The translations under genes and the position numbers were made by a program. 43,200 nt of DNA from a virus, in IMG/VR virus record IMGVR_UViG_3300044800_000007, positions 1-43,200 of that record; one strand, 5' to 3'. A model generated the notes under the pieces. That model was given only the letters and a program-made list of their open reading frames with translations, did no database searches and had not been told where the DNA came from. This document shows positions 5,001 through 36,652 of this stretch, piece by piece; position 1 is the stretch's first letter, and the number at the start of each line of letters is the position of its first letter.

Positions 5001-8000
5001 TTATTAACCTTGCCCATGATATTATTGAGATGAACAGATTCCATCCCAGCCTTGGCAACCTGAACCTCTGGGTCATTATTAAAGAAAACGAATTTAACAC
5101 CCTTATTATTTAATTGCTCGAGCTGATCCAAGAGTTTCGTAAATCCGGGAGCCTTCTCCATCTCTGCGCCAACGCCGTACCCTGTGGACCAAAGATAAGG
5201 AGGATCAATCCAAAGGAAATCTTTCGGGGTTCCTTTCCTGATATATTTATCAATGAGTTTAAGTGCGTCAATATTCTTAATCTCAATCCCTTTAAAGACC
5301 TTAGAGAAACTAGGAATGGCCTTAATCAGATTCCTAAGTTTGAGTGGCGTAATCTCTGTACGGCCAGCTGCCGATTCGATAAGGTATGCTGCCGTTCTAA
5401 AGTTCTCATCGGTCTTATATACAAGATTGAAATGCCCCAACCAATCGGACCCGGGATGTTTATCAAGCCAGTAAGCAATCTCTGACACGAACTTCTGAAT
5501 AACCCTTGGTTCTTTCTGTGCCTTCTGGATAGCCTTGATAACGTGTGGGTCAAGTTCGTTGTAAGTAATCTTTGCATCAGGGAAAAACTTCTTAGAGAGA
5601 TTAGACATTAATCCGGAGCCTCCAAAAGTATCGACAACGTTGTTGATTTTACTTAACTGCTTCACATCCTCAGGCGCAATACTTCCGAGGTCTTTCTGTT
5701 TAATTCCAAGTACGTCTAAAATATATCCGAGCATTCCACGTTTGTTGCCCATTCTAAGAAGTGGGATGTTCTCCTGAACCCACTCACGGTTGCCTGTCCC
5801 GGCCGTAGAATACTTTCCATAAGTGATATGGTACTTTCCCTCAATCGGTAAGTTAAGATCGGTTCGAACTGTCTCAATCTGAACCTTGGCACGGTTACTT
5901 CCTATCGCTTCATCCAGTTTAATAACAAGGTCTTCCAAAGCTTTGGCAGAATCAGCAACTTCCGGATCGGCTTTCATCATCTCAAGCATGGCGTATCTTT
6001 GCTTCCAATGAACTAAATCCTGACCGGTTAATTTCATCAATTGACGCTGAACCAATGCCCTGACTTGACGGAGTTTAGTGGGATCAGAACGAAAGTCTGG
6101 TTTGTCCAGAACCTTAGACATGGTATTAACCCGTTTGACATAATCCGCTTGAGATGTGGATTGATTCAAATAGGAAGTAAATCGTTGTTCCACATCCGCT
6201 TTCTCGACTTGAGCAAGAGTAGTTTTTGACGATGGTTTGATAGCAACCGGAGTCTCCCCCACTCCGCTGGCGGTCACTGGCTGTTGAGGTTGAGGAGCCT
6301 GCGGTTGGACCGGGGGAGTCTCTATTGGGGCAATCTCCGCAGAAACCTGCGGATTAACCTCTACTCCTTTAGGTTGGGTAAGTACTTTAGGGGGTGGGGT
6401 AGAAATCTTGAATAGATGTTTGCCTCCGCCGCCACCTTCAAGTATAAGTCCGTCATAACCTCTTTCTTTTAATCCTTTAGATATAATAAAATCCATAGCA
6501 GAATCAATTTGGTTTTTCTTGGTAAGGGTTAAAATATTGTTAATTTGATTTCTTGTTGCCCCCGCCTTTATTAAACTATTAGAGATTGTTTTACTAGGAT
6601 TTGTAATTTTTCCCGCACCAATAGTCCATCTATATAAATCTTCTGCAATTTTCGAGTATTTCGATGGTATAAAGTTTTCATACCCAGAATTTATAACAGC
6701 AAATGAACCATCATCTAAAATTGCATCCTTAATAATTAGTGGGTTTTTAGGTTCACCCGTTAAAGGATATGAGTTACTTCCGCCAATGGTATCTACCCCC
6801 TCAATCGTTTGAACCCCTTGCTTATCAGCATACCAAGTCCCTCCTCGGATAGTATCAGTGTTTCGATTTGCTACATTAGCTTTTCTTATCCATGTGTTTT
6901 CCTCTCCCCCTACTCCTTTAGGTTGAACGGACAGTGGAACCTGCGGTTGAACAACAACCTTACCATTCTCAAAAGTAATTCCCTGATCTTTCAAATTCTG
7001 GGAAATGTCGCCAGTAACTGCAGCAACATCCGGACCCATTGATTTAGCAATTGCGTTAGCCTGTGCAACTCCAGCTGGACCTTGCCAACTTGCATACAAA
7101 ACGTCTCCAGCTTTAATCATAGACCTTTCTGCTATATCCAAGGCCTGTGCTGCTTCCGGAACTTTCTTGATCTCATCGACAATCGAAGTCTTGGGTGTTG
7201 CCGTAATTTTGTATTGCGTGGCAATCTCTTTAACTGCTGTCGAAAGGAATTTGGTCAACTCCTGTCGGCCGGCAACGTAAGCAACATCTTTCTCTTTACC
7301 CGCCGTCAATGCATTATTAGCAACATCAAAAGCCCTTTTAGTTAAAGAAGTTTCCAAATCAGCCGGCGTCTTAATTTCTGCTGGAGCCTCCAGTAAACCA
7401 CCCTTAGGAACAATAGCCCCCTCCTGAGGTTTAGCTTCCGCAGGTTTCTTCCTCCAAAGATTTCTAACCCAATTCTGTATACCCTCAAAACTAGACATCG
7501 CTTCTGCCGGAGCCTCAGCCGAGGTAGCAACCTTAAAATTGTTCATGAAAGTCTTAAACTCTTCGGGGTTTCCACCACGATCAGGATGCAAATCTTTAAC
7601 CGCTACGTTAAACTTTTGACGGAGAACAGTAGGATTAGCATAATCTTCCAACTTAAATCCATAGTCAGCAAGACCTTTTCTAGCTGCACCCAACTCTGTA
7701 ACAGAAGCACTCTCTAAAGGTGTAGGCTCGAGAAGTCCAAAAAAACCTCCAAGTAAAGCCGACCCCGCCAATTCAATAGGATTAATAGGTTCTCCCTGAA
7801 GTTTCCTTAATGTGACATTAAGGGCAGTTAATATCCCGGCACCCTTAAGTGCAGCTTTTGCAGAAAGAGCCGGAAGTCCTGTGGCAACACTTCCAGCCGG
7901 TAGATTCATCATAAAACCACCCAAAACTGCATTAATATCTGAAGCCAGAGCCTTGCCTACTTTGCCACCTTGATATGACTTTGGATCAAGAAAATCTTTA

Positions 8001-8368
8001 ACCTTTAACTGTTCAACTGGTGACTCTTCCGTTGAGCCAGGGGGGTAGTAATAAGTCTGGGGAGGTTTAAACAAATCCTCAAATCCCAAAGGTTGCGGAT
8101 TGCCCTGAGTATCTTTCTTGTATCCGACATTAAAAGCACCAGAACTTGGATAAAAGGGGAGTTCCTTAACTTTATTGATTCCCTGGATTGCCTTTTGTTT
8201 AATTGCCTGAGCCGGTTTAACAAAGAACTTCTGTTCAAAGTCCTGAAGTTTCTTTTGGTTATCTGCAAGAGCTTTCTTCCGTGCAGCCTCCTGCTGGGCC
8301 AAAGTATTCTTGACATTTGAAACTACACTTGCGCCGGTATTAAATAGATTCTGAAAAAAATTTCCCAT
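2021..8368 (-). CDS. Giant internal virion / polyvalent protein: J-domain, ADP-ribosyltransferase-like and Dam methyltransferase domains
   Basis: 2115 residues. Features in order: a hydrophobic Gly/Ala-rich stretch (about 150-215); a J-domain-like segment (about 230-290) with HPDRGG, the HPD at 261-263; a Pro-rich linker; an ADP-ribosyltransferase-like region (about 495-655) with GGTWYAD around Trp512 and a GYDGLILEGG end; a second Pro/Gln-rich linker; a Dam/D12-class adenine methyltransferase (about 870-1120) with RMGNK (motif X), DTFGGSG from Asp913 (motif I) and DPPY at 1055-1058; a long helical region; a strong membrane segment (about 1831-1850) and a helical C-terminus. Enormous size, late position and the adjoining virion lysozyme suggest that it is packaged and ejected with the DNA, as internal proteins of short-tailed phages are. 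The enzyme mix matches 'polyvalent proteins' thought to protect incoming DNA. The start overlaps the previous stop by one base. Activities are inferred from motifs. Confidence 0.8.
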   Translation of the reverse strand: MGNFFQNLFNTGASVVSNVKNTLAQQEAARKKALADNQKKLQDFEQKFFVKPAQAIKQKAIQGINKVKELPFYPSSGAFNVGYKKDTQGNPQPLGFEDLFKPPQTYYYPPGSTEESPVEQLKVKDFLDPKSYQGGKVGKALASDINAVLGGFMMNLPAGSVATGLPALSAKAALKGAGILTALNVTLRKLQGEPINPIELAGSALLGGFFGLLEPTPLESASVTELGAARKGLADYGFKLEDYANPTVLRQKFNVAVKDLHPDRGGNPEEFKTFMNNFKVATSAEAPAEAMSSFEGIQNWVRNLWRKKPAEAKPQEGAIVPKGGLLEAPAEIKTPADLETSLTKRAFDVANNALTAGKEKDVAYVAGRQELTKFLSTAVKEIATQYKITATPKTSIVDEIKKVPEAAQALDIAERSMIKAGDVLYASWQGPAGVAQANAIAKSMGPDVAAVTGDISQNLKDQGITFENGKVVVQPQVPLSVQPKGVGGEENTWIRKANVANRNTDTIRGGTWYADKQGVQTIEGVDTIGGSNSYPLTGEPKNPLIIKDAILDDGSFAVINSGYENFIPSKYSKIAEDLYRWTIGAGKITNPSKTISNSLIKAGATRNQINNILTLTKKNQIDSAMDFIISKGLKERGYDGLILEGGGGGKHLFKISTPPPKVLTQPKGVEVNPQVSAEIAPIETPPVQPQAPQPQQPVTASGVGETPVAIKPSSKTTLAQVEKADVEQRFTSYLNQSTSQADYVKRVNTMSKVLDKPDFRSDPTKLRQVRALVQRQLMKLTGQDLVHWKQRYAMLEMMKADPEVADSAKALEDLVIKLDEAIGSNRAKVQIETVRTDLNLPIEGKYHITYGKYSTAGTGNREWVQENIPLLRMGNKRGMLGYILDVLGIKQKDLGSIAPEDVKQLSKINNVVDTFGGSGLMSNLSKKFFPDAKITYNELDPHVIKAIQKAQKEPRVIQKFVSEIAYWLDKHPGSDWLGHFNLVYKTDENFRTAAYLIESAAGRTEITPLKLRNLIKAIPSFSKVFKGIEIKNIDALKLIDKYIRKGTPKDFLWIDPPYLWSTGYGVGAEMEKAPGFTKLLDQLEQLNNKGVKFVFFNNDPEVQVAKAGMESVHLNNIMGKVNKLSEEGMIVIKGINPIGTTARKEMMITNLKYGLDTGRLLNLKEVVSAIEKLKDDPATAPQAMLKLYRDIRGSTDLIPAGDRISAFQIRTIRSLKNRLRIKNREMEPVLNELLGDTSFAKMTKEDGIKMIEWLQPRNFDVIENKIAQTRQMLTKERHEAALGGRFVSKHTSLEDKFRVIAGINKTVDDIENLSRMLDMTPPPEPMKPSFWRTIASYPAEYISEDFASNILGIKNSFHSPLKRIIIISNNLQNRMKRDLGNVFKDLSENEQQQVIYLQAGAEKLFKGSITDKAREVADYIQEVSEANIAIVNRLREAKGQPALAVRKPYIPYIISENLAQAANLFDRAKFWEQRTKTPEDFAAGLFTKDPGRIVEIWSQSTSSWLKKNLYGTFLVDRFESLYQVGTPAAVYAREMAMMDIYDMLPESEKFSRSIGAAMNAHVGAIWPKKIKVDEALAKSVLNTTFGQELRENIENGYLTVPRLSLPNLGSVFHKVFYPAKLGWQFSFPLLNLTQPTSGLPFIGLESWVAGKVKLAGVLFPWNRAIRKNYVRILEESGYEYGRVIEGQTIPQFHQKFLNFVDRGVNFLGDVTEFMNRIESMAGAEYFLGKQEKTMGIKMSSEEKSNIAAQFSAFINFLGGKGYAPLAQRSTVGRFLYTFGQFPINQLNVYERQIEYTFKDKGTADFWKMMGREGGATPEVMEAFDKLPPRSKANVFLIFLAMAIPVAILYALSRSWNVASRALPGIPRVVSADLMIAIAEWQASPSADTVSKLKSAIKQFFSVRSLSAVNDALNITKFGVLQTASGRPLFVDRTWQNALKTFIWGRSSLDQYENAYPSILGRTLGGKTEAGAAEKLANERAGTASQETQQAVDIVKWLNTHKGFEERKAYFTDLSAKGKLTDNTLAKLKQYLTEEGKGTGPLESSIAGLNDVDQAKFVLDKITAVQGQAARLAVIQNLKSRGLITDNVIASMKDVLKAGYKANNVNILDKFKGLFQ

Positions 8369-8937
8369 TATTTAAAATAAGACAACAACTGTTCCATGTC
8401 AGCAACCTGTTTTTCCATCGATGGATTCCCAACCTTGGGATTAGAATAAACGTTGAAGAAATCCTTTAGGTCCCCTGTTTGTAAATACTTTGCGTAGCGG
8501 GGATCTGTTAAAACTCCTTTAAGTCCCCTCCTGGTCATACCCGTTAAATCAATTCCTCCAAGGATAGCCTGAGGAAGATTGTCATATTGAACAAAGCCGT
8601 TCTGGTCTTTAACATTAAAGGGATTGTTACGCTTTCTTGCCTTCTCAGAATCTCTTAATCCTCCACTCTCTTTTAGAGCCAATGCTGCAGGTAAGAATTT
8701 GTGAGGTAGGGATTCACCGACTTGTTTAAGTTCAGCAGCCATAGAAGCAATAGGTGGAGTCTCTCCATTACCCCAGGCAGTTAAACCGGAAACAATTTTC
8801 TGAACGACAGGGTCTGGTGTGGGAACAGGCATTACTTTAGGAGTCGGAACAGGAGTAGGGGTAGATTTGGGTTTAAACAATCCCCCGAAAAGATTCTTCG
8901 GTAAAGCGTTTACTATTTTCTGAAATAAGTTGTCCAT
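8368..8937 (-). CDS. Virion-associated lysozyme-like peptidoglycan hydrolase
   Basis: 189 residues. After a Pro/Thr-rich linker (about 24-42) comes a helical lysozyme-fold domain (about 62-189). Glu90 in ALALKESGG is the likely catalytic acid, followed by NNPFN at 104-108 and a Phe-Val-Gln-Tyr segment, the layout of the FlgJ/LytN-like glucosaminidase superfamily. There is no signal peptide. It is placed between two virion genes rather than in the lysis block, so its probable role is local wall opening during DNA ejection rather than host lysis. The giant internal protein follows with a one-base overlap, suggesting coupled synthesis of an ejection complex. Glycosidase versus lytic transglycosylase chemistry cannot be told. 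Confidence 0.7.
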   Translation of the reverse strand: MDNLFQKIVNALPKNLFGGLFKPKSTPTPVPTPKVMPVPTPDPVVQKIVSGLTAWGNGETPPIASMAAELKQVGESLPHKFLPAALALKESGGLRDSEKARKRNNPFNVKDQNGFVQYDNLPQAILGGIDLTGMTRRGLKGVLTDPRYAKYLQTGDLKDFFNVYSNPKVGNPSMEKQVADMEQLLSYFK

Positions 8938-8945
8938 TCATTTAA

Positions 8946-10115
8946 TTATTGTATAGTTATTGATCCATCAGGATTAACAGTTAAACCACTAGTTGCTGCC
9001 TTGGGCGTAAGTGACCATTGTTGGACTTGATTTTCACTTTCAGTTGCCGGCTTACCATAATAATTTTTGGCATTGTATTCCTGACGAATTTGATAGGTGG
9101 GAATTATGTCTGAATACCTTCGGATAGCATCCTCAAATGTAGTTCCTTGTGCAAGGTCATTCCTTAAAGCAGTAAGACTAGTTGCTTTAGATTTTGATGT
9201 TTCTGATGGTTTATTTGCCTGACTTCTAGAATAAGCAATTTGTTCCGCAGCTGTGGTTCCAATTATCCCTAAAAGGTCATCAGTAGATTCGCTTCCTGTG
9301 ACTTTGTATCCAGCCGAAGCAGCTGTGGTCTGCAATGTCTTAAGATAAGAACTTTCATCCGCAGCTAACGAATTTGCCAAAGCCCAATCTTGATCTGAAA
9401 GTGTTCTCTCCCTGTTTAATTTATCATAAAGAGCATTAAGAGTATTTTGAGAGTCCGCTGTAAATCCTGTGGTTAAGCGAGCGTCTCTGTCAACCAAAGC
9501 CTGATAAACCAAGGTAAGTGGCTCAATGTCTTGATTCTGTCCTTGAACTGCATAACCAACCTTTGTGTTAACCCCAGCCTCTCCTAGACTAATTTGATTA
9601 CCCACCCCTGTCAAACTAGATGCCAATTTAGTAAGTTTATCCAACCAAGGAGTTTTCTGAGTAGAAACCATTCCTTCCTTTTGAGATTGAGTAACCAAAG
9701 ACTCTCGAGTACGAGCAGCAATATTGGGTTCAATATTTGAAAGTGTGTCTTCTATTCCACCAATTTCTTTGGAAAGACTTGTAGCAGTATTCCTTAATTG
9801 GGGGAGTCCGGCCTCAGTTTCGTACTGATTGTAAAGATCAAGAGGATTGGCGCGGGCTTTCATAACATCAACAATATTCTGAAGTGCACTATTTTCGGCA
9901 GGGAACTGACTCTGAATATAACTAGTAATATTCGGAATCTGTGATGGATCAATTCCTCCAATAAGTCTACCATCAGAGGTGGTAGACGCCGAGGAAGAAC
10001 CACCACCAGAAACCTTAGATGTCCATCCCCCGTTAGCAATATCAGCATTAATGGCCGCTTCATCGTTCCAGCCTTGACTTTTATAAATGTCAACTATATT
10101 TGCAGGTGGTTGCAT
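8946..10115 (-). CDS. Internal virion / tail protein, unknown family
   Basis: 389 residues, mainly helical with Ala, Ser, Gln and Thr. The N-terminus (NIVDIYKSQGWNDEAAI) looks like a small helical module, then a Gly/Ser linker (about 35-47), and long amphipathic helices to about 340. It ends in a short beta-rich tail with NPDGSITIQ. Not recognised as a known domain. Placement just before the virion lysozyme and giant protein suggests one of the internal or ejected virion proteins typical of short-tailed phages. The start is defined by TATAAT 6 bases before the ATG, with no Shine-Dalgarno. Confidence 0.65.
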   Translation of the reverse strand: MQPPANIVDIYKSQGWNDEAAINADIANGGWTSKVSGGGSSSASTTSDGRLIGGIDPSQIPNITSYIQSQFPAENSALQNIVDVMKARANPLDLYNQYETEAGLPQLRNTATSLSKEIGGIEDTLSNIEPNIAARTRESLVTQSQKEGMVSTQKTPWLDKLTKLASSLTGVGNQISLGEAGVNTKVGYAVQGQNQDIEPLTLVYQALVDRDARLTTGFTADSQNTLNALYDKLNRERTLSDQDWALANSLAADESSYLKTLQTTAASAGYKVTGSESTDDLLGIIGTTAAEQIAYSRSQANKPSETSKSKATSLTALRNDLAQGTTFEDAIRRYSDIIPTYQIRQEYNAKNYYGKPATESENQVQQWSLTPKAATSGLTVNPDGSITIQ

Positions 10116-10121
10116 ATTTAA

Positions 10122-10127
10122 ATTATA
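10122..10127 (-). promoter_or_regulatory. -10 box of leaderless-type start (389-aa gene)
   Basis: TATAAT in a TGCTATAAT context, 6 bases before the ATG at 10115. Confidence 0.6.
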
Positions 10128-10130
10128 GCA

Positions 10131-10370
10131 CTAATGACTCTGCCAAGCGGAGTCATCCCAAAGATATAAAACATCAGTATCAGTCGCATAATAAGCTTTG
10201 ACTTCAGTTCCCCCACTAGGTAGATCTGCAGCCAAACCAAAGAAAATAATCACACCATCAATATGACGCTGTTTGATTGTCTTAGGCAAAATATCGAATT
10301 GAGATATAATCCTAATCCGCATGGCGTTTAATTCTTCTCTGATAATTGCCCTAATTTGATCTTCTTTCAT
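10131..10370 (-). CDS. Small tail-associated protein
   Basis: 79 residues. A charged helical start (MKEDQIRAIIREELNAM) precedes a beta-rich end containing FGLAADLPSGG and VLYLWDDSAW. That ending resembles short repeats seen in tail-fibre and collar proteins (value-plus-'DLP' and 'YLWDDSAW' phrases). The start has an AAAGGAGAACCTA ribosome site that lies inside the last codons of the upstream tail gene and overlaps it, so it is co-translated. Probably a small tail accessory; not assigned further. Confidence 0.6.
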   Translation of the reverse strand: MKEDQIRAIIREELNAMRIRIISQFDILPKTIKQRHIDGVIIFFGLAADLPSGGTEVKAYYATDTDVLYLWDDSAWQSH

Positions 10371-13300
10371 TAGGTTCTCCTTTCTCTGTCCAGATTATCG
10401 ATGTCGATTCCAAGTCCATAAAACTCAGGCGAAACAAGATTGGAAGTGGCAATATCGAGCGCTGCCTGAAACTCATTAAAACGGTTAGCCTTCATAGGAA
10501 ATGGGATTCTAGATTCTATCTTTCCCTCATCGGTTACGGCATCCCCATAAACCCAATTACTCTGACGATCGATCTTGTATTTAAGAGTCATTGAATCTCC
10601 TGTTACCAGAGCCTTGAAGTATCCACGCATATAGTTACTAGTTTTCGGTTGCCAAATCTTTGAGGCATCCGTAATCAAAAATTCACAGGTCCCGGTAGCA
10701 AACGGAGGATTTGTAGGGCTTACCTTATCAACCCCGAAGCTAGAACCATTCTGCCAAGATATGAACAAACTAGACCCCGCTGCCATCACTAAACCGATTT
10801 TAAGGTCGGTTGACTGAGTAATGCCTAGGGAGGTAGGATAATCAAACGAAAACGTTTCTGGAAGCCTTCTGTTAAGCGTGCCAAAAGAATAAACTCCTCT
10901 CTCGATCTCACTGGAATCAGAATCCCCGGCAATGCCAACATGAACGAGCGATCTCCACATGGCCATCGCCCCCGGTAAAACCTGAATAGTTTTATTATTG
11001 GTCATCTTCGGGAACCGAAGTAGTTTGACAGGGCCATAGGCATCATACCTCATCAGGAAGCCAGCATATCCAGCGACATAATACATCGGGTCGCCTGAGA
11101 GAATGGCGTTAACTCCTCCCTCCGGAATATCGATATAGAAGTTGTAGGTCGAATTATGTCCATCCCAGAAGAAGATTTTACCCTGATCGTTATCAGTAAG
11201 ACTCGATCCTTGAGTAACTCCGATGGCAAGATACTCCCTCCAAGTTCCCAAAGCAGTGACTCGGTAACCAGACGGAAAAACAAGGGCATGGGGGTTATAA
11301 GAAACTGCATCCCAAGTTGCTAAATATCTCTCATTTCCAATTGCAAGTAACCCCTCCTGTTGCCAAATAGGGTGAAATTGATCCTCAACTAAGAACTGGA
11401 AGTAGGTATGAAAATCAGCAGTTTCAAGATCGTCAGCCGTTGTAGAAACAACTTTAGGTGTTCCCCCGGTACTGGCCAGATGGAAATGGTAAGAAGCCCC
11501 TCTAACTGGTCTCCAAATATTGGTAAAAACAAACTCTATATCTCCTGTATGCATTGAGGCTGCTGCGATTGTAGCGGTAGCGATAATTCTATTAAGACCA
11601 TCGTGTACAGTTAGTACCCAAGCTCCAGAACCTTTATCTGAAACATTTATCTCAACAGACTTTTGGGGATCTTTATCAGGAACGAATGTTTGTCGGTTTG
11701 TAGCTGTTTCAGAAATAGCAGTTGGAACAGCATAAGTGTTTCCTGAAGTATTTAACTCCTGATCCAGGTCTTGCCTTGTTGTTGCAGCCGAAAACGGAAC
11801 ATCGGTAGCGTCATAAGTAGGGGTATTAACCAGCGTCAAAGTATTAGCATTTGAAGTGGAATCTGTTGCTGCATTATCAAGTTGCCAGTAAGCTTTGAAG
11901 TTATCTTCTGATCCGATTAACTCCGTTTCGTTAGAATTGTAAAGTTCGTTATCAGTACGGATGTCTCCGAAAACTCTTACATCATCGACTCTGGCATCAA
12001 GGAAATGTGCAGGGTTTCCGGAACCATCAAACCTAGCCCCAATCGCAAAGAGAGCATCGCTATCATAAATTGCTGTTAAAGCTCCCGTTGCCTGACCCAA
12101 AGAAACTCCGTTCTCAAAGAACACAGCAAGAGAAGCGGATGCATCCCAAGTAACCTGGAACCTGTTCCATCCATCAACGGCAAGGGAGGTTAAAGTCTTG
12201 GTCAAAAACTCCTCATTCGTTCCATTACTTGAAAGACATAAACGGAGTTGATAAGAAGTTGTCGTAACCAAATTATTATCTTGAGCATAATCAAGAGTAG
12301 GAGTGGTAGTACCTGTATAAGAAGTATAATAATCTAAATGAATACGACCACTTCCACCATTACCACCATCGCCTGCAAATCCTGACCCTCCACCTCCTCC
12401 ATCAGCAGTTATTAATCCTGTTCCCAGGGTTCCAACTTGTGTTTTTAATAAAATTGATCCACCACTTCCCCCACCTCCACCTTCGGCTGTTGACCCTACA
12501 CTTGTTCCATCTGCTCCGTTACTGGTAATTCCACCAGAAACGGTTAATTGTGTAGCAGTTAAAATTACTATGCCTCCACAATTTCCTCCCGCTCCGCCAT
12601 TAGTTGTCCACCTTGCCCCTCCACCGCCTCCGCCTCCAAAAATCAGAGTTGTTAAGTCTGCAGACCCTCCTACTATTCCACCTAAACCACCTTCAGAACC
12701 CGATCCCTGCCCTCCAACGGTTCCGTTTGCTCCACCCCCACCATGATCTCCTTGAGTACCAGGAATATTTCCCCCACCTCCGCCTTGTGCGTTATTGTTT
12801 CTCCCTTTACTCCCTACCCCTAAAGGCGAAGTTCCGGCAGTACCTCTCCTGTCACCAGAAGTTCCACCAGCACCACCAGAAAATCCACACCCATTGGCAC
12901 TTATATTCCCCTCTACTGTAACTGTTCCACTTGCCAAGTAAGCCAAAATACCCCCTACTGTTCCATTCCATGCTTTTGCAGTTAAAGTCTTTCCTGCTTG
13001 GATAGTAATATCGGTATATTCCTTTAGAACTAAAACCTGCGCTCCAGTGGCATAAGTATTTTGCAGAGCATTTGCAAGATTGATCGTTCCTGCAGTATAG
13101 GAAGAAATTTCATTTCTTTCCCACCGGCCAGCATTTGCTCCCTGACTTTGATGAATTAAAATCTTCTGGCCTGGAGCAAAAGAAACATTTGTAGCTGAAA
13201 GAACATAAGTAGCAACCGTTCCTGTAGCAGCAGAATCAACCGGAGCATCAGTGGTGTTACTGGAAATCGTCAAAGCCGCAACTCCAGCACCAAAATAAGC

Positions 13301-24716: not shown

Positions 24717-24975
24717 CTACCTTATAGATTATCTTGCACCGATCACAAAGTATTTCGAGTGTAGATTTTTCAATAGGGGTATCAGGTGAATCAACAATAG
24801 TAGCAATGGAATCCTGATACTGGAAAGTAACGCGCCCACAGTTAATGCAACGAAAATTTTTCTTTTCTCCTTGTTTAATATGACTTAAGAAAACAACAAT
24901 TACCCGATTCTCTCCATCAGAAATGATCGGTTGAAGTTCTTCGACTGAATTATTAAGGTAAATATTAAGCATCAT
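24712..24975 (-). CDS. Small zinc-ribbon protein after terminase
   Basis: 87 residues from the ATG at 24975, which overlaps the terminase stop (ATGA); a TTG start four codons upstream is possible but less likely. Two Cys pairs, CINC and CDRC near the C-terminus, form a probable zinc ribbon around residues 42-82 of the product. Between terminase and portal, it may assist packaging or regulate late genes. Not recognised further. Confidence 0.6.
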   Translation of the reverse strand: MMLNIYLNNSVEELQPIISDGENRVIVVFLSHIKQGEKKNFRCINCGRVTFQYQDSIATIVDSPDTPIEKSTLEILCDRCKIIYKVV

Positions 24976-26588
24976 ATTGATCCCCAACCTCTTCCAGTGG
25001 GTTCTCCTGACTTTCTGGCAACCTCTTCTAAATCAAGCGCGGGAACGGTTTCATCAGGTCCGATCTCAGGATGACTGTCTTTACCCTCACCCGGCTCCTT
25101 GACACTAATAATCTTTCCTACAGAAAGTGTTTGTTCTAAGGCAACCCTCCATAGTATTGTAGCATGAGCGAAATGGTCGGGGAAACCCTCCTTGGTTTTC
25201 CACTGTGGTTTTCGGATTCCTTGAGGAGTATCTACAACCACCCTGAACATATTCTCCCAATGTTTTATATAATCCTCCAAATCCTTCTCGGTAAGATTAA
25301 AAACGATGTCGTGGGAATTAAGTTCGGCCACTACATAATCGATAATTTTAGTGCGGTCTGATTTAACCAAACCCTGGTCCCACCTGATAACCCCGGTATT
25401 CTTCTTATCCTCCTGATAGTAATGAACATAAACCTTGCCCGAGTACTTTTCCGCCAGCTTTTGCGGATGCATCGGATATGGCAAGGCGTCAATTACCATC
25501 GAAGCATTGTATTGATTCCGCATCTTCTCGATCTCCTCCCAATCCTCGGTAACTCCAATCTTGAAAATCCCCAAACGGTTGCCGATGACATAATGCTTCT
25601 CGACTCCGTTATCGACTCCGATCGCAACATTGTTCCTAGGATTAAAGCCAGGGGAAATATCCTGCAAGATCGACTGCCGACTCATACTCTGATCTTTGGA
25701 AATATACTCAAGGCCAAGGGTGAAGTTATGGAAAACATCCTGATCCCCCAAAGAGTCATCAATTATCTTGGAAGCAGAAATCCAAGGAACGAACATCTGG
25801 CCTATCCAATAACCGGAAATCTCCCTGTTAAGGTACTTCTTAACCCACCTACCAGCGCGTAAGGCATCGTCAGACAAGGGTTTCTGGCATTTGGCACAGA
25901 TACGGATCTTTCGAACAAAATCGATGTTTTCGGGAAACTTGAGGTAAAAGTCATAACCGCAGTGGGGACACTTAACAAACCAATGCTTCTGGTCGCTTAT
26001 CCCCCACATGACATCGACTCCGTATCCGGGGATCGAGGGATTACTAAACTGCCACTCCCAACCAAGCTCCGGGTTTTCGCGTTTGGCATCATCTAAGCGG
26101 GACCGGTAAGTCTTAAGAACCAGTTGATTACTGCGGTCATATTCGTCATTCATTAATATATGGGCCGAAATTGAGATCGCCTCGGTCTGCTCGTAACTCC
26201 CTCTATAATAGATGTACCTATCCCCCACTTGTTTAATCTCGATCCTGTCCACACCGACAAGGTCTTTAAGGGCGGGATTTCTGGCGATCAAGGGATTGAC
26301 CTTAGGGATAACGAAATCCTTAGACATATTCCTTGAGGGAAAGGTGTGGATAATATTGGCTCCGGCATACCTGGCAAGATGGAAACTTCTAAGAATGGCA
26401 AGTGTAGAAAAACCAATCTGGGCACATTTCTTAACAACCAATTTAGGGGAATCATCCATGTAGGGATCGACCATAAAAGCGTGATCCCTAAACTCGATAG
26501 GGGAACCATTCTCGTTGACAATTCCTTTATTTATAATCCAAGCAACGCAATTAAAAGCTTCAGCCTGTTCTAGGTCTATTGGACTCAT
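24972..26588 (-). CDS. Terminase large subunit (GpA-like, with zinc ribbon)
   Basis: 538 residues. ATPase half: Walker A-like KKCAQIGFST (53-62) and Walker B ILMNDEYD (144-151; Asp148-Glu149). A zinc ribbon with Cys207, Cys210, Cys231 and Cys234 follows, a feature of the lambda GpA-type terminases. Nuclease half: Asp326 in AIGVDNG, Asp367 in MVIDALP and Asp471-His472 in FPDHFAHA supply metal ligands. It pumps DNA through the portal and cuts it. The gene sits apart from its likely small subunit (31871-32386) by the control region and several genes. The start is set by TATAAT 7 bases before the ATG. Confidence 0.9.
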   Translation of the reverse strand: MSPIDLEQAEAFNCVAWIINKGIVNENGSPIEFRDHAFMVDPYMDDSPKLVVKKCAQIGFSTLAILRSFHLARYAGANIIHTFPSRNMSKDFVIPKVNPLIARNPALKDLVGVDRIEIKQVGDRYIYYRGSYEQTEAISISAHILMNDEYDRSNQLVLKTYRSRLDDAKRENPELGWEWQFSNPSIPGYGVDVMWGISDQKHWFVKCPHCGYDFYLKFPENIDFVRKIRICAKCQKPLSDDALRAGRWVKKYLNREISGYWIGQMFVPWISASKIIDDSLGDQDVFHNFTLGLEYISKDQSMSRQSILQDISPGFNPRNNVAIGVDNGVEKHYVIGNRLGIFKIGVTEDWEEIEKMRNQYNASMVIDALPYPMHPQKLAEKYSGKVYVHYYQEDKKNTGVIRWDQGLVKSDRTKIIDYVVAELNSHDIVFNLTEKDLEDYIKHWENMFRVVVDTPQGIRKPQWKTKEGFPDHFAHATILWRVALEQTLSVGKIISVKEPGEGKDSHPEIGPDETVPALDLEEVARKSGEPTGRGWGSI

Positions 26589-29343: not shown

Positions 29344-29652
29344 TTATTTGCATCCGAATTTGCAAAGCCCCGGTCCAAATCCGTGCTTACAAAGTTTGAG
29401 TCCCCTCTTGGTAGCTCTTTTCTCGATTTGGCGTGTTAACTTGGAATCCGGGGCTGAGGTAGCAAAATAGGTTTTCGGGGGTTTAAGTTTAATATCCCTC
29501 AGTTTTACAACCCCCACCTTGTTTTTATTAATAGACAAAACGACTGCAACAACTCTTCCGTGGCGGGTGATCTCCACAGAATCATTCTGCTGCTGTACTT
29601 GAGCAACATACTTCGAGATATTCGACCGAAACTCTCTGATAGAAACTTGCAT
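29344..29652 (-). CDS. Phd/YefM-type DNA-binding protein with Cys/His tail
   Basis: 102 residues. The first 40 residues follow the Phd/YefM antitoxin fold closely: MQVSIREFRSNISKYVAQV, then DSVEITRHGRVVAVVLSI. Proteins of this family bind operators with TGTACA cores and fold as dimers. After a Pro/Lys linker the C-terminus holds Cys88, His90, Cys97 and Cys101 (KLCKHGFGPGLCKFGCK), a possible metal site in place of the usual toxin-binding helix. No toxin gene is seen beside it. It is the first gene after the control region that carries the TGTGTACACA palindromes, so it is the best candidate for binding them, as a repressor or switch of late transcription. No Shine-Dalgarno before the ATG. Confidence 0.7.
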   Translation of the reverse strand: MQVSIREFRSNISKYVAQVQQQNDSVEITRHGRVVAVVLSINKNKVGVVKLRDIKLKPPKTYFATSAPDSKLTRQIEKRATKRGLKLCKHGFGPGLCKFGCK

Positions 29653-29664
29653 AATATTTCAAAA

Positions 29665-29842
29665 GGAAGCGGGCGGGGCTTTACACCCCTGCAACTCGGG
29701 TCCCTTCAGCAGTAGGCGCAGGACCTCACGTGTGGTGACCCTGGAGCCTAAAGATTGCGTGGAAGCATTATCCACACCCTGCTGTACTACATCCCTAGGT
29801 CAGCCTACACTTCCGTTGCGTCTATCTTCCGCCACCGCTTCC
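29665..29842. ncRNA. Candidate structured RNA closed by a 12-bp helix
   Basis: GGAAGCG (29665-29671) pairs with CGCTTCC (29836-29842) and GGCGG (29672-29676) with CCGCC (29829-29833), interrupted by two bases. Inside are further pairings: GGTCC/GGACC (29699-29703 with 29721-29725), a TCAC/GTGA hairpin (29726-29738), a GTGGA/TCCAC hairpin with a 7-base loop (29759-29775), and CAGCAG/CTGCTG and GTAGGC/GCCTAC, which would make long-range or pseudoknot contacts. The strand is undecided: minus would make it the leader of the Phd-like gene (13 bases away); plus has a TGCATAAT box at 29648-29655. No known RNA family recognised. Confidence 0.5.
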
Positions 29843-29870
29843 CATGACGAGAGGACTTATGAAAGGAAAA

Positions 29871-29886
29871 CTCCCCGGGCGGGGAG
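29871..29886 (-). terminator. GC hairpin terminator in control region
   Basis: On the minus strand CTCCCC-GCCC-GGGGAG is followed by TTTTCCTTT, a plausible intrinsic terminator for transcripts starting among the palindromic sites. It lies just upstream of the candidate RNA. Confidence 0.6.
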
Positions 29887-29933
29887 AAACCTTGGGCTGT
29901 CGCTTGGTGCAACCAATCCTCTGTACATTACAA

Positions 29934-30402
29934 TATGTACACAATCAGAATAATGAATTGTGTACACAAATGCAATAGACGAAAAAATCCAAAAAAAATT
30001 AAAAAACGGGGGTGGGTGTCAGGGAGCCGAACAATGAGTCAGAGAGAGAGCAGGGACCCACCGGGCCACCACCCTATCCTAGGGGGGTACGCCCCCTTTG
30101 TCTTTTGGGTTTTCGCATGCACAGACGGAGCGGGTAAAAGAATAGTATATACTGACTGACAAAAACACCCCTTAAGGCTGACACACAATGTGTACACAAT
30201 ACAGGGCATACAACTGACCGCACGTAATCGATTCTAAAGGCCTTACGCACAACTCAAGCACATCCTATACCTCTCTAGTTGTGTACACAATAAGCGTGTT
30301 ATGCGTCGCACATGATATAAAGTGCGACTAACGATTAACAGGCTCAATGTGTACACAAAAGGCCGGGGGAGGACCAAAAACGACTTGGAATTGTGTACAC
30401 AA
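29934..30402. promoter_or_regulatory. Array of TGTGTACACA palindromes (operator or iteron array)
   Basis: Perfect 10-base palindrome TGTGTACACA at 29959-29968, 30189-30198, 30280-30289, 30348-30357 and 30392-30401; three of these extend to TTGTGTACACAA. A near copy, TATGTACACA, is at 29934-29943 beside a TGTACA at 29922-29927. Centre-to-centre spacing shrinks towards the early side (about 230, 91, 68, 44). TGTACA cores are the known recognition element of YefM/Phd-family antitoxins, and such a protein is encoded at 29344-29652. Spacing is too irregular for CRISPR. Confidence 0.8.
30305..30328. repeat. Inverted repeat GTCGCAC/GTGCGAC
   Basis: GTCGCAC (30305-30311) and GTGCGAC (30322-30328) separated by 10 A/T-rich bases, between two palindromic sites. 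Possibly a second operator or part of an origin. Confidence 0.5.
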
Positions 30403-30518
30403 GTCGTAAGTCAATGAAGCGCAAACTCCGTCCCCAAAGCTACCAAAGGACCAAAAGGAGCAAAAACGCCCCAAGTCTAAGAAGTAACACCGATACGATT
30501 TAAGGGAACAAACGCAAA

Positions 30519-30545
30519 ACCCGCCCCTCGGAGAGAGGAGCGGGT
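30519..30545 (-). terminator. Intrinsic terminator of the early operon
   Basis: On the minus strand ACCCGC-x-CTC..-GAG-x-GCGGGT forms a stem of 10 pairs with one mismatch and a 5-base loop, followed by TTTTGCGTTT. It begins 13 bases past the stop of the last early gene. Confidence 0.8.
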
Positions 30546-30558
30546 CCAAAGAAAAGAA

Positions 30559-30753
30559 CTAAAAGTAAAGTGGGAAGTGCGATTCAATCGATTCCTCCGC
30601 CTCATCACGAATATGTAAATCCTCAGACCAATCACCTTCAACATCAAACATCGTCGGATCTTCAGCTTGCCAAGAAGCGATCACCCCATCAATCTTAGCT
30701 TGCTGAAGCTCTTCCGGCAATTCGTTCCATTCAAGATTAAAAGAATAAGTCAT
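30559..30753 (-). CDS. Very acidic 64-aa protein (DNA-mimic candidate)
   Basis: 64 residues with 17 Asp/Glu and only two Lys/Arg, net charge near -15. Acidic residues are spread along the chain (NELPEELQQ, AEDPTMFDVEGDWSEDLH, RDEAEESIESH). A GGGGGTGA ribosome site precedes the ATG. Last gene of the early operon, with a terminator 13 bases on. Small, highly acidic early proteins of phages often mimic DNA to block host enzymes (Ocr, ArdA and several anti-CRISPRs have this character), but no family match is claimed. Confidence 0.65.
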   Translation of the reverse strand: MTYSFNLEWNELPEELQQAKIDGVIASWQAEDPTMFDVEGDWSEDLHIRDEAEESIESHFPLYF

Positions 30754-31648: not shown

Positions 31649-31874
31649 AGGCCAATTTTTCTGGTGGGGAGAGGCGAGTCGAACGTGACTTCTCCCCCGG
31701 GCTGTTTCCTCGGTTAAAGGAAGGCGGGAGGCTTTTGAGGACCCCCGAAGCCTGTTTGGACCGGCATTCGTATACCCAGACACCAGAACGGAAATACCAG
31801 GCTTGCGCCCGCTTACCAAGTGGATCAAAGAGGAATCGGACCTCAAGACATACGCTGCCCTCGCACGCCGTCAA
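31635..31874 (-). CDS. Doubtful 79-aa frame with TTG start
   Basis: Open frame starting at a TTG that overlaps the stop of the small terminase-like gene. No ATG or GTG inside and no ribosome site. The sequence holds AQAWYFRSGVWVYECRSKQASG and a Ser/Arg/Pro-rich end, which overlaps the tRNA-like hairpin. Either a weakly translated small protein or a stretch kept for its DNA/RNA structure. Confidence 0.25.
   Translation of the reverse strand: MTACEGSVCLEVRFLFDPLGKRAQAWYFRSGVWVYECRSKQASGVLKSLPPSFNRGNSPGEKSRSTRLSPPEKLAYENY
31662..31697 (-). other. tRNA-like minihelix (acceptor + T-loop motif + CCA)
   Basis: On the minus strand GGGGAGA (31697-31691) pairs with TCTCCCC (31672-31666), followed by ACCA (31665-31662). 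In the loop is GTTCGACTC (31684-31676), the standard T-loop sequence. No D-arm is visible and the inner T-stem pairs poorly, so this is not a complete tRNA. It could be a tRNA fragment, a tRNA mimic, or coincidence. Confidence 0.35.
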
Positions 31875-32386
31875 ACAGACTGACCCGCATTAGGATTAAA
31901 ATAACTGGCAAGAAAACCCTTCAGATTCTCGTTCCACTTCTTGCGCTCCTCCTGAGGCACAGAGAAGAAATTGAACTGAGTATTATTGATCGGAGGACCG
32001 GAAGCCCCGGCAGCATAAGGAGCGATACCCTTCTTAAGACCAAGGAACTCAGCCAGAGCATCCGCAGAGGATTTCCGGGCTTGCCAATCCTCGACAACCA
32101 CATCAGCATCACGCCCAACGCGCTTGTTCGCATCCAGACCATCGAAATAGGTCTTCATGACCTTATCCCCCAATGACAACCCATACTTGCGCTTGGAGAT
32201 CATGGAGAGCGTTTTAAGATATTCCTGAACACCCTTGGTTTCAATAAGAGCCTGACGCGGATGCTGGGCCGAAGTAATCGAATAACCGGCATCCATCATG
32301 GCTTCCTTCTTACTCTTAAACTTGCCGGAAATAATATTATTGACAGCATCGACTGCTTGCGGTGTAGGTTTAGGATGATTTGCCAT
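31871..32386 (-). CDS. Terminase small subunit-like protein
   Basis: 171 residues. The N-terminal part (about 8-60) has the helix-turn-helix layout of small terminases: PTPQAVDAVNNIISGKFKSKKEA, then MDAGYSITSAQHPRQALIET with the characteristic AGYS turn, then a helix. The middle is helical and the C-terminus Gly/Pro/Asn-rich. It would recognise the packaging site and feed DNA to the large terminase. It lies over 5 kb upstream of the large subunit, beyond the control region. A TAGAAT sequence lies 6 bases before its ATG. Assignment by pattern only. Confidence 0.55.
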   Translation of the reverse strand: MANHPKPTPQAVDAVNNIISGKFKSKKEAMMDAGYSITSAQHPRQALIETKGVQEYLKTLSMISKRKYGLSLGDKVMKTYFDGLDANKRVGRDADVVVEDWQARKSSADALAEFLGLKKGIAPYAAGASGPPINNTQFNFFSVPQEERKKWNENLKGFLASYFNPNAGQSV

Positions 32387-32395
32387 ATGTTTATT

Positions 32396-32917
32396 CTACT
32401 CTTTCGTTCCAAAATGTTGCACGACCAAAGAATGTTGCACTCCAGACATCAATCCACTACACTTGCCAATTCCCACTTCCTTATATTTAGAATTAAGGAT
32501 ATTGTCGCGGTGGGTAGGACTAGCCATTAACGCAACCATTGAATCATGATCTGTCGCATAATCCCGGGCTAGATTCTCCCCAGCGTAGCGATAATTATAG
32601 CCATTGGCAATAAAGAACTGCCAAGGCGAGGTTCCATCAGACGCGAAATGCGCCCAATAGCCACGTTTAATCATATCCAAACATTTAGCCTCAGCAGAAG
32701 CCATAAGTTTATCGTTAGGCACAATCAGCTTCACTCCAGCCTTAGCCCGCTCCGCGTTGATAAGATTAACCATATAAGACGGAGGAGTAACCTCAACAGC
32801 CTGAACAACCGGCGCGGGAGTAATAGCCGGATGAGGGGCTTGATGCACCAAAGGCTGACCAACCGCAGGATGGCTGGCCAAATAAATAAACCAGAATAAT
32901 AAGATTAAGTCTTTCAT
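32396..32917 (-). CDS. Secreted CAP/SCP-domain protein
   Basis: 173 residues from the ATG at 32917 (GGAAGGTGA ribosome site 6 bases upstream; a GTG three codons earlier is unlikely). N-terminal signal peptide or membrane anchor (MKDLILLFWFIYLASHPAVG), a Pro/Val-rich linker, then a CAP domain (about 47-173): NLINAERAKAG, His90 in YWAHFASDG, AGENLARDY with Glu114, ASPTHRDNIL with His136, and a VVQHFG end. These are the conserved CAP histidine/glutamate positions. Bacterial CAP proteins are secreted and of mostly unknown activity. It has its own TTGACA-N17-TTAAAT promoter. In a phage it might alter the host envelope or block further infection. Confidence 0.8.
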   Translation of the reverse strand: MKDLILLFWFIYLASHPAVGQPLVHQAPHPAITPAPVVQAVEVTPPSYMVNLINAERAKAGVKLIVPNDKLMASAEAKCLDMIKRGYWAHFASDGTSPWQFFIANGYNYRYAGENLARDYATDHDSMVALMASPTHRDNILNSKYKEVGIGKCSGLMSGVQHSLVVQHFGTKE

Positions 32918-32947
32918 GCTATTCACCTTCCCTTGATCGAATAAGCC

Positions 32948-34466: not shown

Positions 34467-36652
<2,186 letters not shown>

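Follow-up and report, generated by a model that had tools for sequence, protein, structure and literature searches.

Antitoxin-fold repressors are known almost solely as halves of toxin–antitoxin pairs. The locus described here presents the same fold and operator core with no toxin, with a Cys/His element, and at the terminase locus of unrelated phages. It lies in IMG/VR virus record IMGVR_UViG_3300044800_000007, analysed as a whole (43,200 bases) and referred to below as the window.

Palindromes in the largest gap of the record

The recognisable genes of the window are all on the minus strand. From right to left, they encode an exonuclease, a single-strand-binding protein, a Cpn60 chaperonin, a CAP-domain protein and a candidate for the terminase small subunit (TerS); then come small genes, a terminator-like hairpin, a 906-bp gap, the Phd-like gene, further small genes, a virion protein gene and the gene for the terminase large subunit (TerL). 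The 43.2 kb hold no tRNA and no Rfam family. The features used in what follows are:

24972..26588 (−), TerL (phrog_675, E 1.8e-88)
29344..29652 (−), Phd/YefM-fold protein, 102 aa (MQVSIREFRSN...ITRHGR...), tail LCKHGFGPGLCKFGCK (PF02604, TIGR01552, AF2, Foldseek)
29347..29391 (−), C-terminal Cys/His motif C-x-H-G-x5-C-x3-C (CKHGFGPGLCKFGC), putative zinc site read from the sequence
29653..30558, gene-free gap with the array, 906 bp, the largest of the record
29871..29888 (−), terminator-like hairpin in the leader, between the array and the Phd gene (consensus match only)
29922..29927, seventh site, a bare TGTACA core
29934..29943, near copy TATGTACACA
29959..29968, TGTGTACACA site 1, exact match
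30189..30198, TGTGTACACA site 2, exact match
30280..30289, TGTGTACACA site 3, exact match
30348..30357, TGTGTACACA site 4, exact match
30392..30401, TGTGTACACA site 5, exact match
30517..30547 (−), intrinsic-terminator-like hairpin, 13 pairs (consensus match only)
31871..32386 (−), TerS candidate (phrog_641, E 0.005; Terminase_2, E 0.07), whose homologues precede TerL in relatives

The exact coordinates bear out the five perfect palindromes and one near copy reported in the initial annotation, which had missed the seventh, bare core. Among perfect 10-bp palindromes in the 43.2 kb, TGTGTACACA alone exceeds two copies. When up to one mismatch is allowed, it has 7 matches in the window versus 0.64 expected, a number reached in none of 100 shuffles. 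Of the 64 six-base palindromes, TGTACA shows the tightest clustering, with 7 copies within 500 bp. The core-to-core intervals are 14, 25, 230, 91, 68 and 44, and the helical phase is not constant. The spacing had been described as shrinking towards the early side; this is true of the four distal intervals (230 down to 44) but not of the two proximal ones.

The description of the gap as a gene-poor early/late boundary also holds in part. The gap is the largest of the record, but its "early" side carries the TerS candidate and the chaperonin as well; it separates a replication/TerS block from a structural/TerL block, with no clean early/late border. The hairpin at 30517-30547 closes the upstream gene (30559-30753), so that the genes past the array probably need a promoter of their own. 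A search of the window for sigma-70 promoters gave a best candidate no better than those of shuffled sequences (p 0.59). The leader hairpin (29871-29888) could serve as an attenuator. A structured leader element was considered too and dropped: its predicted fold is only slightly more stable than those of shuffled sequences (z −1.66 and −0.52), and Rfam has no match to it.

Two genes of the right-hand block are minor observations in their own right. The chaperonin gene (34797-36383, minus strand) encodes a full-length Cpn60/GroEL-type protein (PF00118, E 9e-54) and is kept in the relatives L025, L026, L030, L035 and L036. The CAP-domain (cysteine-rich secretory protein) gene lies at 32396-32926, also on the minus strand (PF00188, E 4e-13).

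An antitoxin fold with a Cys/His tail

The assignment of the first gene past the array to the Phd/YefM type, made initially from the sequence, is supported by profiles and by structure. PF02604 matches aa 2-44 of the protein (E 6.8e-11, 42.2 bits for a cut-off of 29.8) and TIGR01552 matches it with an E of 1.2e-8 (34.2 bits, cut-off 20.8). In the AF2 model, residues 1-40 are placed with a pLDDT >90 in the order β–α–α–β–β, and Foldseek retrieves from the PDB, as its best matches, antitoxins of the Phd/YefM fold, among them P1 Phd both free (4zlx) and on its operator (4zm0, 4zm2). R6 and R9 are invariant across the phage Phd set, R9 occupying the position of the arginine in the Phd/YefM xxxRxNL motif; N-terminal arginines of this kind recognise the operator in the family (PMC3920265).

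The rest of the protein departs from the family. The PF02604 match stops at profile position 45 of 74, and the C-terminal toxin-binding segment is missing; beyond the N-terminal fold, the AF2 model is disordered save for one helix, and the protein ends with CKHGFGPGLCKFGCK. A Cys/His motif does stand in place of the toxin-binding tail, as had been noticed, and the same tail is found in the Phd protein of another phage contig, L199. The C-x-H-G-x5-C spacing is present in the L199 protein as well as in a terminase-adjacent protein of L021. Note that in L021 (6962-7189), the tail of the window protein (SCPHGAGKGLCKHGCK) is carried by a different, Phd-less Cys protein encoded just upstream of TerL.

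The claim that no toxin gene is present stands: none of the neighbours of the window Phd gene matched a toxin family in Pfam, NCBIfam or PADLOC. Two features of a type II toxin–antitoxin module, an adjacent toxin gene and a C-terminal toxin-binding segment, are absent from the window; with the Phd/YefM family it also shares the presence, near the gene, of palindromic operator-type sites with TGTACA cores. Such genes should not be annotated as antitoxins.

The initial statement that the family binds operators of this kind proves correct. E. coli YefM binds paired palindromes with TGTACA cores (PMC3920265), and a 2026 study describes a chromosomal Phd binding a 10-bp palindrome (PMC13034048). 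Upstream of 67 bacterial PF02604 genes, within 200 bp, TGTACA occurs at 1.57/kb versus 0.073/kb elsewhere (about 21-fold); 18 of the 67 genes have it upstream, and none has TGTGTACACA. TGTACA is the core of the Phd family; it is the clusters of the TGTGTACACA 10-mer that are special. As a side observation, a PHD_like antitoxin gene in a Clostridia MAG (L181, 1731-2324; PF12910, E 1e-20) has two TGTGTACACA copies 18 bp apart upstream.

The gene and the array recur together beside TerL

We scanned 2.9 million IMG/VR viral contigs array-first, blind to gene content, for two TGTGTACACA copies separated by at most 58 bases. The yield was 15 and 32 stretches, a few common to both; the pattern was exact, hence blind to arrays with diverged sites. 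In seven further phage groups, a Phd-like domain starts 0-14 bp from a TGTGTACACA site with TerL adjoining, and the Phd-like proteins of all seven carry a Cys/His or Cys-rich segment. (i) In L017/L199, the Phd domain is followed by a tail of the window type, KLCPHGNSIGQCFDKKKDRRC, the sites reach the start codon and TerL (phrog_38) lies 2 kb downstream. (ii) In L098, identical to L100 and L103, a Phd domain with a CxxC...CxxC segment is encoded directly after TerL, with sites at the start codon and inside the gene. (iii) L104 and L111 encode, in the TerS–TerL interval, a Phd-like domain with a C-terminal Cys segment, and sites are found at or just before the start codon. (iv) In L009, L119 and L015, with TerL adjoining, the order is an N-terminal CRxC...H segment, a linker and a C-terminal Phd-like unit, and the sites in the linker translate as CVHK, CTQ or VYT. 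In some phages, operator copies are thus encoded within protein-coding sequence, as CVHK repeats.

When the sites of the Phd-array phages are aligned, they share [AT]TGTGTACACA[AT]. One directly abuts the start codon in L098, L104 and L199, as expected for an autoregulatory operator. In L104, the sites coincide with a TTGTAA/TATAAT promoter: one is located within its 17-bp spacer, the other overlaps the −10 element (p 0.0015). The in-gene sites exceed what synonymous-codon shuffles give: L015 has 5 versus 0.55 expected (0 of 5000 shuffles), and the p values are 0.024 for L009, 0.046 for L119 and 0.0008 for TGTACA in L098.

The TerL types at these loci differ (Terminase_3, Terminase_6N, phrog_2, 979, 38 and 675), indicating that the locus was not inherited as one unit, and the gene next to the Phd gene varies by lineage, TerL being the usual one. 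A Phd fold, a Cys/His element and a TGTGTACACA cluster are all present beside TerL in the window, in L199/L017 and in the L098 group; they are also present in L104, L111, L009, L119 and L015, where the Phd assignment is weaker. Judged by sequence, at least two other phage groups share the gene–array pairing, and as many as seven probably do. The co-occurrence in other phages that had been suggested as a check is therefore found, beside TerL, and the toxin-less Phd protein with its array looks like a recurring phage control element. In the searchable open-licence PMC full texts, queries for Phd with terminase, the 10-mer, pac-site palindromes and lone Phd regulators did not turn up any account of such an arrangement.

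Strength of the Phd assignments

A profile made from seven array-locus proteins retrieved eight domains with E <1e-14 from 900 kb, all at most 14 bp from a site, a result to be read with the fact that the profile was built partly from the loci it scored. Two independent checks, a profile of 52 bacterial Phd domains and hhalign, both lower the claim for five contigs. Out of 21,702 reading frames, the bacterial profile scored the window gene best (E 1e-10), followed by L098 (1.6e-5), the bacterial gene L182, which lies 1.5 kb from a site, and L017 (0.006); L104 (E 1.8), L111 (E 11) and L009 (E 46) scored weakly, though near the top of the frames. With hhalign, L104 plus L111 aligned at P 1.3e-4 and the L009 group at P 1.8e-3, with the correct register. 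The structure model of the L009 protein had low confidence and gave no useful fold match. On these sequence comparisons, the Phd identity of the window, L098 and L017 proteins is solid and that of the L104, L111, L009, L119 and L015 proteins probable.

The converse question is whether the gene and the sites occur apart. Among 41 records with a related TerL, there is neither a PF02604 gene nor a TGTGTACACA site; in 41 array records, PF02604 Phd genes lie at arrays only; and across the 82 phage records, every Phd gene that the PF02604 profile detects is at an array. Within the TerL relatives, neither partner occurs without the other, so the pattern that had been named initially as a refutation (the gene without palindromes, or the reverse) did not turn up there, and this joint absence, together with the recurrence elsewhere, upholds the initial view that the array and the Phd-like gene belong together. 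Other viral contigs, L096 and L118 among them, have TGTGTACACA pairs but no detectable Phd gene; the presence of the 10-mer by itself does not imply a Phd protein. As a control, we used a palindrome of the same composition, TGGTTAACCA: it gave 11 stretches versus 32 for TGTGTACACA, none with a Phd domain. One of the 11 (L196) lies about 1 kb from a terminase match, which makes proximity to terminase alone weak evidence.

Homology searches added no member. The window protein has no relative in the viral contigs and none by tblastn among 50,697 phage records; five other Phd–Cys members had no tblastn match in the same 50,697 records, nor did one member searched against plasmids. Member-based searches of the viral contigs returned only members already known. 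Among TGTGTACACA array pairs in bacterial genomes, there was no Phd–terminase case, L181 alone being relevant.

Some stretches with sites and no Phd gene have features of their own. In L096 (9710-9760), L109 (3200-3250), L120 (8837-8887) and L107 (5992-6030), the TGTACA sites are located at the 3′ end of a gene weakly similar to a phage transcriptional activator (phrog_248, E 0.006), upstream of differing TerL types. In L118 (4477-4504) and L110 (4577-4605), a TerS-position gene and TerL follow the TGTGTACACA pairs at a distance of about 0.4-0.6 kb.

A local autorepressor as the favoured reading

We consider it reasonably probable that the window encodes a toxin-less Phd-fold repressor, with a Cys/His tail that probably binds zinc, whose target is its own locus, where the structural/TerL block begins. 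The 102-aa protein would be a dimeric Phd/YefM-fold DNA binder with no toxin partner, its toxin-binding tail swapped for a small Cys/His element. It would bind the TGTGTACACA palindromes upstream of its own gene, and several bound sites would repress, or set the level of, transcription of its own operon, which would head the structural/TerL block. Phages would thus have retained an antitoxin-type autorepressor for local control at their terminase locus. What makes local autoregulation the most likely role is the biology of the family (PMC3920265, PMC4803016, PMC13034048), the start-codon sites of L098, L104 and L199, and the promoter overlap in L104. A master regulator, as proposed at first, fits poorly with the finding that in each of 8 Phd-array phage records the exact TGTGTACACA sites are all at the one locus.

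Several observations go against the autorepressor. In the window, the core nearest the Phd gene (29922) is 270 bp upstream of the ATG, and the promoter candidate is no better than chance. The L009, L015 and L119 sites lie inside coding sequence, where a simple promoter operator needs none; TGTGTACACA pairs occur near terminase without a detectable Phd gene (L096, L107, L109, L120, L110, L118); and sequence comparison gives weak backing to a Phd identity in L104, L111 and L009/L015/L119.

Known systems resemble the window in part. E. coli YefM (of YefM–YoeB) and the Axe antitoxins have the Phd/YefM fold and autorepress via palindromes with TGTACA cores (PMC3920265, PMC4803016). They use two sites 12 bp apart, whereas the window has five to seven sites over 0.5 kb; unlike them, it has no toxin gene, a Cys/His tail and a phage terminase locus. 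The Phd protein of phage P1 (Phd–Doc) is likewise a phage-borne Phd fold, among the closest in the PDB, and binds palindromic operators; it pairs with the toxin Doc, whereas the window has neither a Doc-like gene nor a Doc-binding segment. A combination of DNA-binding and zinc-binding domains is found in MqsA (MqsR–MqsA), an antitoxin and regulator that uses palindromic sites and whose DNA-binding domain is a helix-turn-helix unrelated to the Phd fold. HNH-like genes (read by eye) hold the TerL-adjacent place in L020 and L022, close relatives of the window; HNH endonucleases are nucleases and, unlike the window protein, have no antitoxin fold and no TGTACA array. The window and its kin offer a defined protein–DNA pair for asking how uncultured phages control terminase or late genes, or mark packaging sites.

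Alternative readings

The array might be all or part of the DNA at which packaging is started or licensed, the Phd-fold protein being an accessory that helps TerS/TerL recognise phage DNA. Pac sites within terminase genes are known, and the pac site of phage P1 has a repeat array. All the Phd-linked arrays found are no more than about 2 kb away from TerL (in the window, the distance is about 3.3 kb), mostly in the TerS–TerL interval, and their sites are confined to one place per record; the sites of L009, L015, L119 and L098 fall within terminase-operon genes, a location easier to reconcile with a DNA landmark than with a promoter operator. These in-gene sites and the constant company of terminase lend such a role some probability. 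We nevertheless regard it as rather unlikely: the phages have TerS-like genes of their own, the usual readers of such a site; start-codon sites and the L104 promoter overlap are typical of autoregulation; and both the gene and the sites are missing from 41 relatives that share the TerL type. There is a similarly small chance that the locus is a phage nucleoprotein element, in which Cys proteins of the Phd fold (of a ribbon-helix-helix-like fold in one relative) bind palindrome clusters, often in-gene, and either mark DNA for packaging or couple terminase expression to packaging. If so, phages would repeatedly have turned antitoxin folds into accessory proteins that read DNA for packaging.

Another host or phage protein could bind the array, with the Phd gene adjacent by coincidence, and the TGTGTACACA pairs in contigs without a detectable Phd gene, as well as beside other genes in bacterial genomes, would fit. 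This seems improbable in view of the seven further groups with a Phd-like start 0-14 bp from a site, the joint absence of gene and sites in the 41 relatives, the lack of off-array PF02604 genes in the 82 phage records, and the identity of TGTACA as the family operator core (PMC3920265 and the 67-gene control).

It is quite improbable that the gene encodes the antitoxin of an ordinary type II pair whose adjacent toxin went unrecognised, or that the phage uses it as an antitoxin to neutralise a host toxin. The fold and operator core are those of antitoxins, two genes without assigned function (72 aa and 133 aa) come after the Phd gene, and other phages have lone Phd-like proteins (PHROG 375; the S-CAM1 "PhDYefM tox-ant domain protein"), which are Phd-fold proteins like that of the window but had no tblastn match with it or the other Phd–Cys proteins tried among the 50,697 phage records. 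Against this, no neighbour belongs to a toxin family, the Pfam match ends at aa 44, short of the toxin-binding segment, the Cys/His tail is common to L199, and the neighbour of the Phd gene differs per lineage, TerL being the usual one.

That the locus is a replication origin, its palindromes being iterons and its protein an initiator or the origin binder raised initially, is very improbable: the gap does have repeated palindromes, a DnaA box (29768) and an A/T-rich stretch, but DnaA boxes are at chance level (3 found vs 3.9 expected), the GC skew does not turn there, and in other phages the pairing tracks terminase genes rather than replication genes.

A parallel case in a close TerL relative

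In L035, a close TerL relative of the window, the TerS–TerL interval encodes (7537-8142) a protein with, as read by eye, a domain like that of ribbon-helix-helix antitoxins and a Cys segment; searches of Pfam and PHROGs gave nothing firm for it. Three copies of another palindrome, TGYGTCAAAAWGACRCA, are found before, at and inside the start of this gene, which suggests that one antitoxin fold may have been replaced by another at the same place. The L035 TerL gene (8129-10705) is itself split by an apparent intein (CFDTDTKILTFKGWENCETIHTGDEIVTV...). In L030, the TerS–TerL interval encodes (8456-9135) a Cys-rich protein with three in-gene repeats of AAGTTAGCGTTCCA, translated as SVP repeats, and a weakly Phd-like ORF comes next.
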